Below are positions 4,674-8,906 of a DNA stretch of 10,548 bases, piece by piece. Every line of letters begins with the position of its first letter. Positions within the stretch are counted from its first letter, which is position 1. The notes below the pieces were generated by a model, which saw only the letters and a program-made list of their open reading frames with translations, made no database searches and was not told the DNA's origin. The stretch covers positions 1-10,548 of the forward strand of contig JAGGSF010000051.1 of the NCBI GenBank assembly GCA_021159235.1, read 5' to 3'. This DNA is from Deltaproteobacteria bacterium. Lineage in GTDB: Bacteria > Campylobacterota_A > Desulfurellia > JAGGSF01. Made by a program: the position numbers and the translations under genes.

Positions 4674-5013
4674 CAGAAACTGGGGAAAGGAAGTAGAGAA
4701 AAAAGCTGTCTCCTTTCTGAAGAAGAACGGGCTAAAGATTGTTACATGTAATTTTTACACCCGTTGCGGAGAGATAGATATCATCGCTAAGGATGGAGAA
4801 GAATGGGTATTTGTTGAAGTAAAGGGAAGGAAAAATAAGAAATTTGGTTTACCTCAGGAAGCGGTAAGCCGGAAAAAACAAAAGAAGATAAAAGATGTTG
4901 TTCTGCTCTTTTTGCAGAAGATGCACTTAAACATAGAAAACACGCCTGTAAGATTTGATGTTATCTCCTTTTTAGAAAATGAAGGAATTGAATGGATAAA
5001 AAATGCCTATTAG
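4648..5013 (+). CDS. yraN: YraN/UPF0102-family putative nuclease, probable CTG start
   Basis: The frame encodes 121 residues from CTG at 4648 to TAG at 5011-5013. Family landmarks are the N-terminal helix [46 protein letters not shown] (a PD-(D/E)xK-like E-x-D...E-V-K core), the K-rich [10 protein letters not shown] helix, PVRFDVISF and the characteristic end EWIKNAY. No ATG, GTG or TTG exists between the upstream in-frame TGA (4627-4629) and the conserved core; the first ATG (4920) lies after the core. CTG 4648 is preceded by AAGGAG (4634-4639) at an ideal eight-base spacing and gives an N-terminus of family-typical length, so it is the preferred start. Function is unproven in the family; a nuclease-like fold is inferred. 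Its place after rplS matches the usual gene order, though rnhB is missing. Confidence 0.87.
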
Positions 5014-5330
5014 GTAAAGATTTTAAACGGCACATCTTTTCTCTTCTTAATATCTCCCCTTCTGATGGCCTCTTCTAAATCCTTCTTCAACTGTTCTACT
5101 ACTTCCTTTCTAAAATCCTTAATGTATCCTCTTTCCTTGGCCACTTCAACTAATCTTTCGCCCGTTTTCTTCCCACACCACTCTATTGTTTCTCTGGGGA
5201 AGTAAGTTGCACCACAACCCGGACACCTATAAACTTCAACATCTTTTACCTTCAAACACTCCCCTTTGACCGGTCTTTTGAAAGGTGTTACCACCTTTCT
5301 CATTTCTCTACCACAAAACTTACACTTCAT
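5010..5330 (-). CDS. YgiT-type zinc-finger protein
   Basis: A 106-residue protein beginning MKCKFCGREM, with CxxC at residues 3-6 and again at 36-39 (YRCPGCGATYF) about 30 residues later. This matches the YgiT-type (MqsA N-terminal-like) zinc-binding domain, often found in antitoxins. The C-terminal 60 residues are a charged helical region (DFRKEVVEQLKKDLEEAIRRGD), not an evident Xre helix-turn-helix, and no MqsR- or RelE-like toxin is adjacent. ATG 5330 is chosen because AGGGG lies five bases upstream and the protein then begins at the zinc finger; ATG 5357 would sit inside a hairpin. It is the last gene after the CoA-transferase pair. Its TAA and the TAG of yraN overlap tail to tail. Regulator or metal-binding accessory are both possible. 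Confidence 0.75.
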   Translation of the reverse strand: MKCKFCGREMRKVVTPFKRPVKGECLKVKDVEVYRCPGCGATYFPRETIEWCGKKTGERLVEVAKERGYIKDFRKEVVEQLKKDLEEAIRRGDIKKRKDVPFKIFT

Positions 5331-5343
5331 CTTATCCCCTCGC

Positions 5344-5383
5344 ACCTGGGGTGGCATGTGCCACCCCAGGTCTTTGTTTTTTA
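5344..5383 (+). terminator. Strong GC-rich hairpin with T-rich tail; probable plus-strand terminator
   Basis: Arms ACCTGGGGTGGCA (5344-5356) and TGCCACCCCAGGT (5359-5371) are perfect 13-base complements around TG. On the plus strand the stem is followed by CTTTGTTTTTT, as expected for an intrinsic terminator stopping read-through from the ffh-yraN operon. On the minus strand it lies between the CoA-transferase beta stop and the zinc-finger gene but lacks a U-run, so there it may act as an mRNA-stabilising or partly attenuating stem. Confidence 0.7.
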
Positions 5384-6436: not shown

Positions 6437-7696
6437 CTAAGAAATAGGTCTGTACAGGTCTGGCTTATAACCATAAGCCGCATCCGCTCTCAACTCATAC
6501 AGACGCTCCATGCCTACCGCTCCACTGGGGCATTCAAATTTTGCCTCAATCTTTCCCCATTTGAAGTAATCCCTTCCTACCTTATTCTGATAGAAGTCCC
6601 ATTCATCCTTACCTACCTGATTGCGCCAGTAATCTTCCAGTGCTTGCTTTCCTTCCACACCTCCAGCCGCAGCACGGTTTATCTGAATATAGAACTTCCA
6701 CCACATCCAGTCATAATCATATACATAGGTGCAACCGGTGGGATAGCAGGACCAGGGTGCATCAATGATAACATCCGTCATCAAGCAGGGAATCTGATTC
6801 TGCTGCGGACGATATCTCAACTCTTCCTCTGGAACAACCTGTTCCGCAGTTATTACCAGATACTTTGCAGAGATAGACTGTTCCACATCGGGGACCAGCA
6901 ATCCCTCTATTCTTGCTGTTCCTTTCACCCCCACTCTCTGAACATGGGTGGTGGTTACAAACGGTATACAAGGTGGATAGAGGATGGCAATTACACCTTT
7001 CTCCCCTGTATATTTATTGACCCTCTTTCTCAGTTTCTCATAGAAGATACCATCTTCTTCGGCGCAGGTCTTATTCATGGTCGTGTCTGGTTCATCACCG
7101 GGTGAAAACTTATTCTTGGGGTCATATTGATGCGGTCTCAGTCCCCAACCATCAAATGGATCCTTTATGATTGCATGTCTCTTTGGTGGAATATCAGGAT
7201 GAATCCAGGTGCCATCCGGATTTTTCCCTCTCAAGCCTGCCTTACCGAATGTATCGTATTCCAGCAGGTCACTCCCCAACTCTGTCATGCCGGTGGCAAA
7301 CTGGTGACCAAAATAACCGGCCTGGGTTCTCAATGCCCAGGAATAATTGGTATGGTCCATCACCGCCTCAAGGTTTCCATCCTCCAGACCCTTTCTTATC
7401 TCATAAGAAACGGGCTGAATGGTCTCCAATCCCAAGTATGTCATCTCAACCCATGCCAGTTGATTGGCACCCGCCAACATCATCATCGGGGTAGCGCCAG
7501 CATTGGTCTGCATATAGAGATCGGGTATATTCTGACGAATGGCTTCTCTGGCTGTAGAGGCATTGGTTCTGGTGTAACCAAACCCACCCAAGCACCATGC
7601 CCTGCGCGGCCTGATATACTTCTTTACAGCATCCTTAAGGTCCATTAGTTTATCACTCTTTGGTTTCTCAATGTTTGGATCTACCTGGTTCGCCAT
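6437..7696 (-). CDS. Glutaconate-type (family I) CoA-transferase, alpha subunit, enlarged
   Basis: A 419-residue partner of the beta subunit. The N-terminal part (MDLKDAVKKYIRPRRAWCLGGFGYTR, residues 18-43) and the later block VTTTHVQRVGVKGTARIEG...DVEQSISAKYLVITAEQVVPEEELR followed by IPCLMTDVIIDAPWSCYPTGC and YDYD match GctA in order. GctA is about 320 residues; most of the extra length is an insertion around residues 150-235 (including DPFDGWGLRPHQYDPKNKF) plus a C-terminal extension ending in ELRADAAYGYKPDLYRPIS. The ATG at 7696 is preceded by GGAGGT and overlaps the end of the 139-aa gene by 16 bases. Alpha and beta together should form the heteromeric CoA-moving enzyme. No signal peptide or membrane segment is seen, so it is cytoplasmic. 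Confidence 0.88.
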   Translation of the reverse strand: MANQVDPNIEKPKSDKLMDLKDAVKKYIRPRRAWCLGGFGYTRTNASTAREAIRQNIPDLYMQTNAGATPMMMLAGANQLAWVEMTYLGLETIQPVSYEIRKGLEDGNLEAVMDHTNYSWALRTQAGYFGHQFATGMTELGSDLLEYDTFGKAGLRGKNPDGTWIHPDIPPKRHAIIKDPFDGWGLRPHQYDPKNKFSPGDEPDTTMNKTCAEEDGIFYEKLRKRVNKYTGEKGVIAILYPPCIPFVTTTHVQRVGVKGTARIEGLLVPDVEQSISAKYLVITAEQVVPEEELRYRPQQNQIPCLMTDVIIDAPWSCYPTGCTYVYDYDWMWWKFYIQINRAAAGGVEGKQALEDYWRNQVGKDEWDFYQNKVGRDYFKWGKIEAKFECPSGAVGMERLYELRADAAYGYKPDLYRPIS

Positions 7697-8100
7697 GATT
7701 TACCTCCAAATTCTTCAAAAAATTTGTTTAACTTTTCCCTCTCCTTTTCAATAATGTCTTCAATATCTTCTGCTCTTTTCTTGTCTGCCGAATCCTCAAA
7801 TAAACTTTCTTCGGGATAATCAATGGGCAATCCTATCCTATCAGCCAGCATCTCTATAAATTCTCTTACCTCAATATACTTCAAGCCGGTTGTAACAATA
7901 TCAAGGGTGTAATCCTCATTGAAATATATGGTAGGATAGGCTACATCGCTGTCTGGTGGTTCAATGGGAATAAGGCGAAATCCTCTCCCCTCAAAATCCA
8001 TAATCGTACCCAAGGGTTTTACCTTCTCTCTTATTTCACTCAGTGTGAACATATCACCACCAATAATCCTGCCCTTTACAAAGGTAAATTCTCCCGCCAT
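7681..8100 (-). CDS. Unrecognised 139-aa protein of the CoA-transferase operon
   Basis: I recognise no family. The N-terminal two thirds look like an alpha/beta fold (FVKGRIIGGDMFTLSEIREKVKPLG, GFRLIPIEPPDSD, YPTIYFNEDYTLDIVTTGL), followed by a helix (EVREFIEMLADRIGLP) and a strongly charged C-terminal helix (KKRAEDIEDIIEKEREKLNKFFEEFGGK) that could mediate coiled-coil contact. There are no cysteines, signal peptide or membrane span. Its ATG overlaps the stop of the 123-aa gene (TAATG), and its end overlaps the transferase alpha gene by 16 bases, so the three are translationally coupled. That arrangement suggests a stoichiometric partner or accessory subunit of the transferase; this is inference from context only. 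Confidence 0.82.
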   Translation of the reverse strand: MAGEFTFVKGRIIGGDMFTLSEIREKVKPLGTIMDFEGRGFRLIPIEPPDSDVAYPTIYFNEDYTLDIVTTGLKYIEVREFIEMLADRIGLPIDYPEESLFEDSADKKRAEDIEDIIEKEREKLNKFFEEFGGKSWRTR

Positions 8101-8471
8101 TATTTCAATTCCTTCCTCTTAGCCCACAACTCTCTAATAACAGTTTCAATTCTTTCCTTTGCCAGATTTATCACCTCTAAACCGTTATTCAGATAATCCA
8201 ATGTTGTCCTCAATTCAGATTCTATTATGTCCGCGGTCGACCTCTTTTCAAGCAAAGGCACCAGCTTACCTATCTTATTCACTGCTCCGGGAACATTTTT
8301 GAACTGCCACATCCAGGTATCAAAGTAATAGTTGATCATCATCAACTTTCTATCCTCTGCAGCAAGCCTCTTCCATATCTCCACCTTTTCTTTTACCTCT
8401 TCTTTCCGCACCTCCTTCGGTTCTTCTTTTTTAACCACCTTTTCCCTGAAGGTCTTTGGATAAACTATCAT
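8100..8471 (-). CDS. Unrecognised 123-aa helical protein, first gene of the CoA-transferase operon
   Basis: No family recognised. Residues 8-33 form a highly charged Lys/Glu stretch (KKEEPKEVRKEEVKEK); the rest appears all-helical, with an aromatic-rich segment MMINYYFDTWMWQFKNVPG (about 44-62) and two amphipathic helices ending in ERIETVIRELWAKRKELK. It could be a small helical-bundle subunit. The ATG at 8471 is preceded by AAAGGAGGTGA, an almost perfect complement of the 16S rRNA tail and the best ribosome-binding site in the window, which suggests strong expression. It is the promoter-proximal gene of an operon continuing into the 139-aa protein and the transferase subunits. Confidence 0.82.
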   Translation of the reverse strand: MIVYPKTFREKVVKKEEPKEVRKEEVKEKVEIWKRLAAEDRKLMMINYYFDTWMWQFKNVPGAVNKIGKLVPLLEKRSTADIIESELRTTLDYLNNGLEVINLAKERIETVIRELWAKRKELK

Positions 8472-8477
8472 ACTTTC

Positions 8478-8488
8478 TCACCTCCTTT
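8478..8488 (-). promoter_or_regulatory. Extended Shine-Dalgarno site of the transferase operon
   Basis: AAAGGAGGTGA on the minus strand, six bases before the ATG at 8471; far stronger than the other ribosome-binding sites in this window. Confidence 0.9.
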
Positions 8489-8507
8489 TACATAATTTTG
8501 TTTTTTA

Positions 8508-8536
8508 AATATAACTAAACATTTATTAAATGTCAA
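8508..8536 (-). promoter_or_regulatory. Promoter of the CoA-transferase operon, with overlapping palindrome
   Basis: On the minus strand TTGACA (8536-8531) and TATATT (8513-8508) are 17 bases apart, a near-consensus sigma-70-type promoter. Transcription should start near 8501 and give a leader of about 30 bases. A 15-base palindrome (arms ACATTTA and TAAATGT around one base, 8519-8533) fills most of the spacer and enters the -35 box; it is a candidate operator, though AT-rich sequence produces such repeats by chance. Confidence 0.8.
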
Positions 8537-8552
8537 GCATTTTTTTAATTAA

Positions 8553-8879
8553 TTAAGCTGCTTTTATTCCTGTTTTTGCTACATAGACATTTACTCCCTT
8601 ATCAGAGAAAAATGTTAAAAGAGCATTTATCTCTGCAGACGAATTGCCCAGCCTGCCTATCTCGGATACTATGAGATTGTCCCCCTCCTTTAACTCAGCA
8701 AAAATCTTTTTACCCAATATTCTTTCTCTCCAGCCTGTATAACGTGGCACTTCTTCCTTTATATATTCTACTGGTTCCAGCTGATTTTTTGCCGCAAAGT
8801 CTCCTATTACAGCCTTCTGAATAAGCTCCGTTTGTTCCTCTCCTGGAGATATCTGAATATATCCTATTGTCTTTGCCAT
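8553..8879 (-). CDS. Stand-alone, degenerate serine-recombinase (resolvase) N-terminal domain protein
   Basis: A 108-residue protein resembling the resolvase/invertase catalytic domain: GYIQIS (residues 6-11, usual GYxRVS) with Ser11 in the nucleophile position, then GWRERILGKKIFAELKEGDNLIVSEIGRLGNS (49-80), matching the family's W/D-R...L...GD-L-V-S-x-L-D-R-L-G-R-S. Against Tn3 or gamma-delta resolvase, Arg8 is Gln9, Asp67 is Gly75 and Arg71 is Asn79, while Ser10 and Arg68 equivalents remain. There is no helix-turn-helix domain. ATG 8879 is chosen over TTG 8891 because GGAGG sits five bases before it. The open, well-started frame suggests a retained, re-purposed protein rather than a decaying transposase fragment; recombination activity is doubtful. 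It follows the 66-aa gene by 27 bases. Confidence 0.72.
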   Translation of the reverse strand: MAKTIGYIQISPGEEQTELIQKAVIGDFAAKNQLEPVEYIKEEVPRYTGWRERILGKKIFAELKEGDNLIVSEIGRLGNSSAEINALLTFFSDKGVNVYVAKTGIKAA

Positions 8880-8906
8880 TACATCCTCCAAACTAAAATT
8901 CTATCA

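Follow-up and report, generated by a model that had tools for sequence, protein, structure and literature searches.

The window analyzed here, a stretch of 10,548 nucleotides, is the entire contig C36 of the 1.13-Mb genome G000, and all of the genes described lie on its minus strand. In the order typical of the Desulfurellia, two small genes encoding proteins of 123 and 139 residues (ORF123 and ORF139) are followed by the alpha and beta genes of an enlarged CoA-transferase and, in the window, by a Zn-ribbon gene (Table 1). The layout described in an earlier note on this DNA, a TAATG link between the small genes and a 16-base overlap with alpha, agrees with our coordinates: base 8100 is common to ORF123 and ORF139, and the ORF139 stop at 7681 lies within the alpha gene, which starts at 7696. 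Nearly all Desulfurellia relatives show similarly tight junctions, mostly TAATG, TAGTG, or a TAA or TAG with ATG immediately after. Direct reading revealed a strong Shine-Dalgarno sequence, AAAAGGAGGTGAG, ahead of ORF123, and the GGAGG ribosome-binding site is kept in all Desulfurellia relatives. The promoter that had been proposed ahead of the operon was recovered as a TTGACA-17-TATATT site that ranks in the top two of 13 over the 4.6 kb scanned; we regard it as promoter-like, as a consensus match is no proof of function.

Table 1. Features of the four-gene unit and its flanks in the window
Feature	Coordinates	Strand	Basis
Promoter-like sigma-70-type site, TTGACA-17-TATATT, 5' of operon	8508..8536	-	Consensus scan, 11/12 matches
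Shine-Dalgarno of ORF123, AGGAGGTGAG	8477..8486	-	Direct reading; GGAGG kept in all relatives
ORF123, predicted helical, putative accessory protein, family-less	8100..8471	-	AF2 helices; adjoins every long-alpha locus
ORF139, putative accessory protein, predicted beta-alpha-beta4-alpha core and acidic tail, family-less	7681..8100	-	AF2; homologues at long-alpha loci
Alpha subunit, enlarged class I CoA-transferase, 419 aa	6437..7696	-	PF01144; 1poi_A profile, E 2e-38
Alpha insert, residues about 146-230 (~85 residues)	7007..7261	-	Gap between two 1poi_A stretches
Alpha C-terminal extension, residues 373-419	6440..6580	-	Past end of 1poi_A match
Beta subunit, class I CoA-transferase, 338 aa	5384..6400	-	PF01144; 1poi_B, E 2e-21
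Beta Glu76 codon	6173..6175	-	Aligned with catalytic Glu of 1poi_B
GC-rich hairpin after beta	5344..5371	-	Predicted; same place, different sequence, in most of eight relatives
Zn-ribbon protein, fifth gene	5010..5330	-	YgiT-finger match

The hairpin after beta is probably an attenuator, a terminator or the 3' end of the four-gene unit. It is predicted in seven relatives (L077, L076, L105, L075, L024, L023 and L079), with a less clear fold in L020, and its recurrence at this position suggests that the four genes form a bounded unit and that the Zn-ribbon gene lies behind an attenuator. The listed start of that gene, 5357, falls within the hairpin; the likely start is an internal methionine (MKCKFCG) at 5330. 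The Zn-ribbon protein harbors a YgiT/MqsA-like finger, and its orthologues follow beta at L020-L024, L075-L077, L079 and L105, a position at which the gene was seen in Desulfurellia only. Upstream of the unit, at 8553-8891, lies a gene for a 112-residue lone serine-recombinase catalytic domain, and related genes of 111 residues are found within a few kilobases of the unit at Hippea-like loci (L076 6522-6857, L079 6179-6514 and L105 11861-12196).

Both large proteins match PF01144, the Coenzyme A transferase domain, above its cut-off, and their sequences identify them as a class I CoA-transferase pair of the glutaconate type. Beta Glu76 sits in an MEAG motif that is kept in all of the beta homologues examined from both lineages described below. 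The alpha subunit is unusual, with an insert at a position where 1poi_A has about 27 residues and a C-terminal extension, which supports the earlier description of the transferase as enlarged. The insert is better conserved between phyla than the core (55% versus 45% identity), and it contains a DPFDGWGLRPH run that is invariant in five aligned sequences. At 419 residues, compared with a normal length of about 320 with a short linker, alpha is thus a variant and not an ordinary member of its family, and it is diverged from all curated NCBIfam models.

The small proteins had been called unrecognised, and HMM searches bore this out: neither ORF123 nor ORF139 matched a curated Pfam or NCBIfam family above cut-off, and acyl-carrier families in the same collections were among those with no match. 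No convincing PADLOC model or PDB sequence match was obtained for either protein; a single weak Cmr6 match to ORF123 (E 0.01) was dismissed as an indication of a defence protein. Both genes are under purifying selection and hence are not chance ORFs, as the dN/dS values between close species pairs are low, 0.016-0.080 for ORF123 and 0.050-0.148 for ORF139, with 0.016-0.076 for alpha. Beyond the closest pair, identity to relatives is about 41-52% for the small proteins versus 71-85% for alpha and beta, and this faster evolution fits accessory roles but equally loosely attached ones. Charge also varies, the pI of ORF123 being 9.5 in the window compared with 5.1 in L055.

The two proteins had been described as small and helical, which holds for the first and fails for the second. 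ORF123 is predicted by AF2 to form long packed helices (pLDDT 83), and a Foldseek search with the model found no PDB chain. The predicted ORF139 core is instead mixed, with the order beta-alpha-beta-beta-beta-beta-alpha (block pLDDT about 75-90), and is followed by an acidic, helical, low-confidence tail with pLDDT mostly below 50; a homologue from a second phylum has 99 residues and lacks the tail, and the structure alignments were built without the second-phylum homologues. The predicted elements of the core follow one another as in a single TBP-like or KA1-like repeat. The Foldseek matches are middling, the best reaching Z of about 8 with TBP, CENP-N, TTM and KA1 chains, which is within the usual background for common arrangements, and so we draw no function from them. 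DNA binding, as the likeness to TBP might suggest, was set aside because ORF139 is strongly acidic (pI 4.6).

The main evidence is that the small genes and the long alpha occur together. With ORF139 alone as query, 16 of 146 genomes gave a match; all 16 are Desulfurellia, and each has ORF123 and alpha adjacent. Alpha as query, a search independent of the small genes, returned loci from Hippea sp., Desulfurellaceae MAGs and Desulfurella acetivorans A63; it recovered those same 16 Desulfurellia genomes and two from an unrelated family. Long-alpha loci are thus present in 16 of the 25 genomes of the Desulfurella/Hippea group. In a second, unrelated phylum, of which one family was sampled, 12 of 12 genomes have the long alpha, and among 386 genomes sampled around that phylum it was seen (E < 1e-25) only there and in Desulfurellia. 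When profiles of the two small proteins were run separately over 337 relatives of the window, both identified the same 18 genomes; outside these 18, the searches gave just weak fragments within long ORFs and one decayed copy, in G012. Homologues of the small proteins that are widespread apart from the transferase, the finding that would have counted against the earlier proposal, were accordingly not seen over the 337 genomes.

HMM searches over all loci showed that ORF123 adjoins every long alpha in both lineages and that only three long-alpha loci are without ORF139: L061, where the frames are broken, and L069 and L070, which are cut off by contig ends. By contrast, ORF123 and ORF139 were each detected at 0 of 14 loci of ordinary short transferases (L043-L054, L057 and L058, with L043 and L057 being one place). 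The second phylum has the order ORF123-alpha-beta-ORF139, and at one locus (L056, 9700-10329) a tandem second ORF139 homologue lies behind beta. Because the order differs between the lineages while the linkage is kept, selection appears to maintain the set, rather than only the inheritance of one arrangement. Losses are also shared: profile searches of the nine Desulfurellia genomes that lack alpha found neither ORF123 nor ORF139, although, with several incomplete MAGs among the nine, single absences weigh less than the pattern. In one of the genomes without alpha, the Hippea-like G012, the orthologous site retains a faint ORF123 tail and an ORF139 reduced to codons 3-40 (L103 7095-7214, G012:C30), between an intact OXCT-type transferase and a C-N hydrolase. 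ORF123 has decayed there even though it lies upstream of the deletion by which alpha was lost. Collectively, the strict association of these adjacent genes in two unrelated lineages and two gene orders attests to a conserved neighborhood, in keeping with the four-gene functional unit that had been proposed, and we consider it very probable that the four genes are a selected functional unit.

Beyond the four, no neighboring gene is constant across the lineages. In Hippea-like genomes an OXCT-type CoA-transferase gene is divergent from the unit, back to back with it, and its product is 83-90% identical to that of D. acetivorans. This gene was not found in the window's genus, whose genomes are small (G000, G001 and G002); the literature places a succinyl-CoA:acetate-type transferase in all sequenced Desulfurellaceae. 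The notion that the unit replaces succinyl-CoA synthetase in the window's genus was dropped because all eight genomes checked contain SucC and citrate synthase. A UbiD near the Hippea unit was rejected as a substrate clue because it is a menaquinone-pathway enzyme. The second-phylum neighbors comprise a PaaK-like CoA ligase, an M24 peptidase, an IOR-like alpha/beta pair, an isochorismatase-like hydrolase, MeaB and IclR regulators. They hint, as a guess, at carboxylates from amino-acid breakdown as substrates.

We moderately favor, as the most likely mechanism, a class I CoA-transferase with ORF123 and ORF139 as stable accessory subunits. The operon would then encode one enzyme system, in which a glutaconate-type alpha/beta pair, as its sequence relationships suggest, moves CoA from an acyl-CoA to a carboxylic acid by way of a covalent glutamyl-CoA thioester on beta Glu76. 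We infer that the helical ORF123 and the alpha/beta-folded ORF139 bind the alpha/beta core stoichiometrically. They would dock most likely at the conserved alpha insert, which is missing from ordinary transferases. Once docked, they may shape or gate the acyl/acid pocket or hold the complex together. Points that weigh against this reading are the variable charge of ORF123, the faster evolution of both small proteins and the poor confidence of the ORF139 tail. More tentatively, the unit may define an as yet undescribed four-subunit subclass of class I CoA-transferases in which ORF123 and ORF139 are obligatory, dock on the alpha insert and confer a new substrate range or regulation.

The translation order in Desulfurellia raises another explanation, that ORF123 and ORF139 act as chaperones for assembly or stability, which would be produced just before alpha and leave once the large subunits have folded or paired. 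Indeed, both are translated before alpha and coupled to it there, both are small and fast-evolving, and ORF123 is predicted to be a helical bundle. However, in the second phylum translation of ORF139 comes after that of beta, so that translation before alpha is not required, and the ordinary class I transferases at the 14 loci, which have the same fold, do without helpers. We therefore regard chaperones as unlikely, though the next most likely reading after accessory subunits. It is rather improbable that the small proteins serve as adaptors or regulators linking the transferase to another enzyme for channelling, be it the OXCT-type CoA-transferase of Hippea or, in the second phylum, the ferredoxin oxidoreductase and CoA ligase, to give examples. 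The divergent OXCT-type gene beside the Hippea unit and the PaaK-like ligase, IOR-like pair and M24 peptidase near the second-phylum unit are consistent with such a role, but these candidate partners differ by lineage, and in the window's genus, where the OXCT-type gene is missing altogether, none of them adjoins the unit; only the four genes themselves are constant.

The reaction could also be a different one, with the alpha/beta fold running a non-transfer reaction, as hydrolase or decarboxylase in the manner of IpdAB or AibAB, and the small proteins shaping an altered site. Alpha is enlarged and lies outside the curated NCBIfam models, and the fold does host other chemistry, for example the AibAB decarboxylase (PMC7756340). 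In AibB, however, Cys56 stands where the catalytic glutamate is present in every beta examined here, which makes CoA transfer the default reading and an altered reaction the least probable of the four explanations.

To our knowledge, glutaconate-type CoA-transferases are simple alpha/beta enzymes. A lineage of them that is never without two extra proteins would revise that picture, and ORF123 and ORF139 would become two new protein families whose role can be tested; our data suggest that they are two additional parts of a CoA-transferase, not described before. G009, a complete genome of 1,694,430 bases that we take to be Hippea maritima, carries the alpha/beta pair. As H. maritima is reported to have only one CoA-transferase (PMC9768450), the pair in G009, if the assignment is correct, would be a second, unreported in that study. 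The same work left three of the four D. acetivorans CoA-transferases without an assigned function (PMC9768450), and the unit bears on Desulfurella CoA-transferase activities beyond those that its characterized enzyme explains.

The literature searched contained no class I CoA-transferase with accessory subunits and nothing on a four-gene unit in Desulfurella. The naphthalene transferase ThnP was rejected as a counterpart, as it is single-chain and Cat1-like with its catalytic glutamate replaced. The characterized CoA-transferase from the same organisms, AHF96498 of D. acetivorans, is a succinyl-CoA:acetate CoA-transferase (PMC9768450). Its likely Hippea orthologue adjoins the unit, with an identity of 83% to the D. 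acetivorans gene, the figure reported for AHF96498 (PMC9768450); it differs from the present enzyme in being a single fused chain of about 556 residues, of the OXCT1-type family and without small partners. AibA/AibB, the 3-methylglutaconyl-CoA decarboxylase (PDB 5mzw family), shares the two-subunit CoA-transferase fold with a weak sequence match, and its catalytic glutamate has been replaced by Cys56 of AibB (PMC7756340). The beta subunit here differs from AibB in retaining the glutamate. Citrate lyase and malonate decarboxylase are multi-subunit enzymes that combine a CoA-transferase-type alpha subunit with a small extra subunit, an acyl carrier bearing a prosthetic group, whereas ORF123 and ORF139 show no carrier-family match in Pfam or NCBIfam, although either might be a diverged carrier. 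The closest known system is GctA/GctB of Acidaminococcus fermentans (PDB 1poi), the best PDB match for both large subunits, with which the present pair shares the two-gene alpha/beta layout, the GTGLP loop and the catalytic glutamate. Compared with GctA, alpha here is about 100 residues longer, owing to the conserved insert and C-terminal extension, and, in contrast to GctA/GctB, two extra small genes are linked to the transferase.
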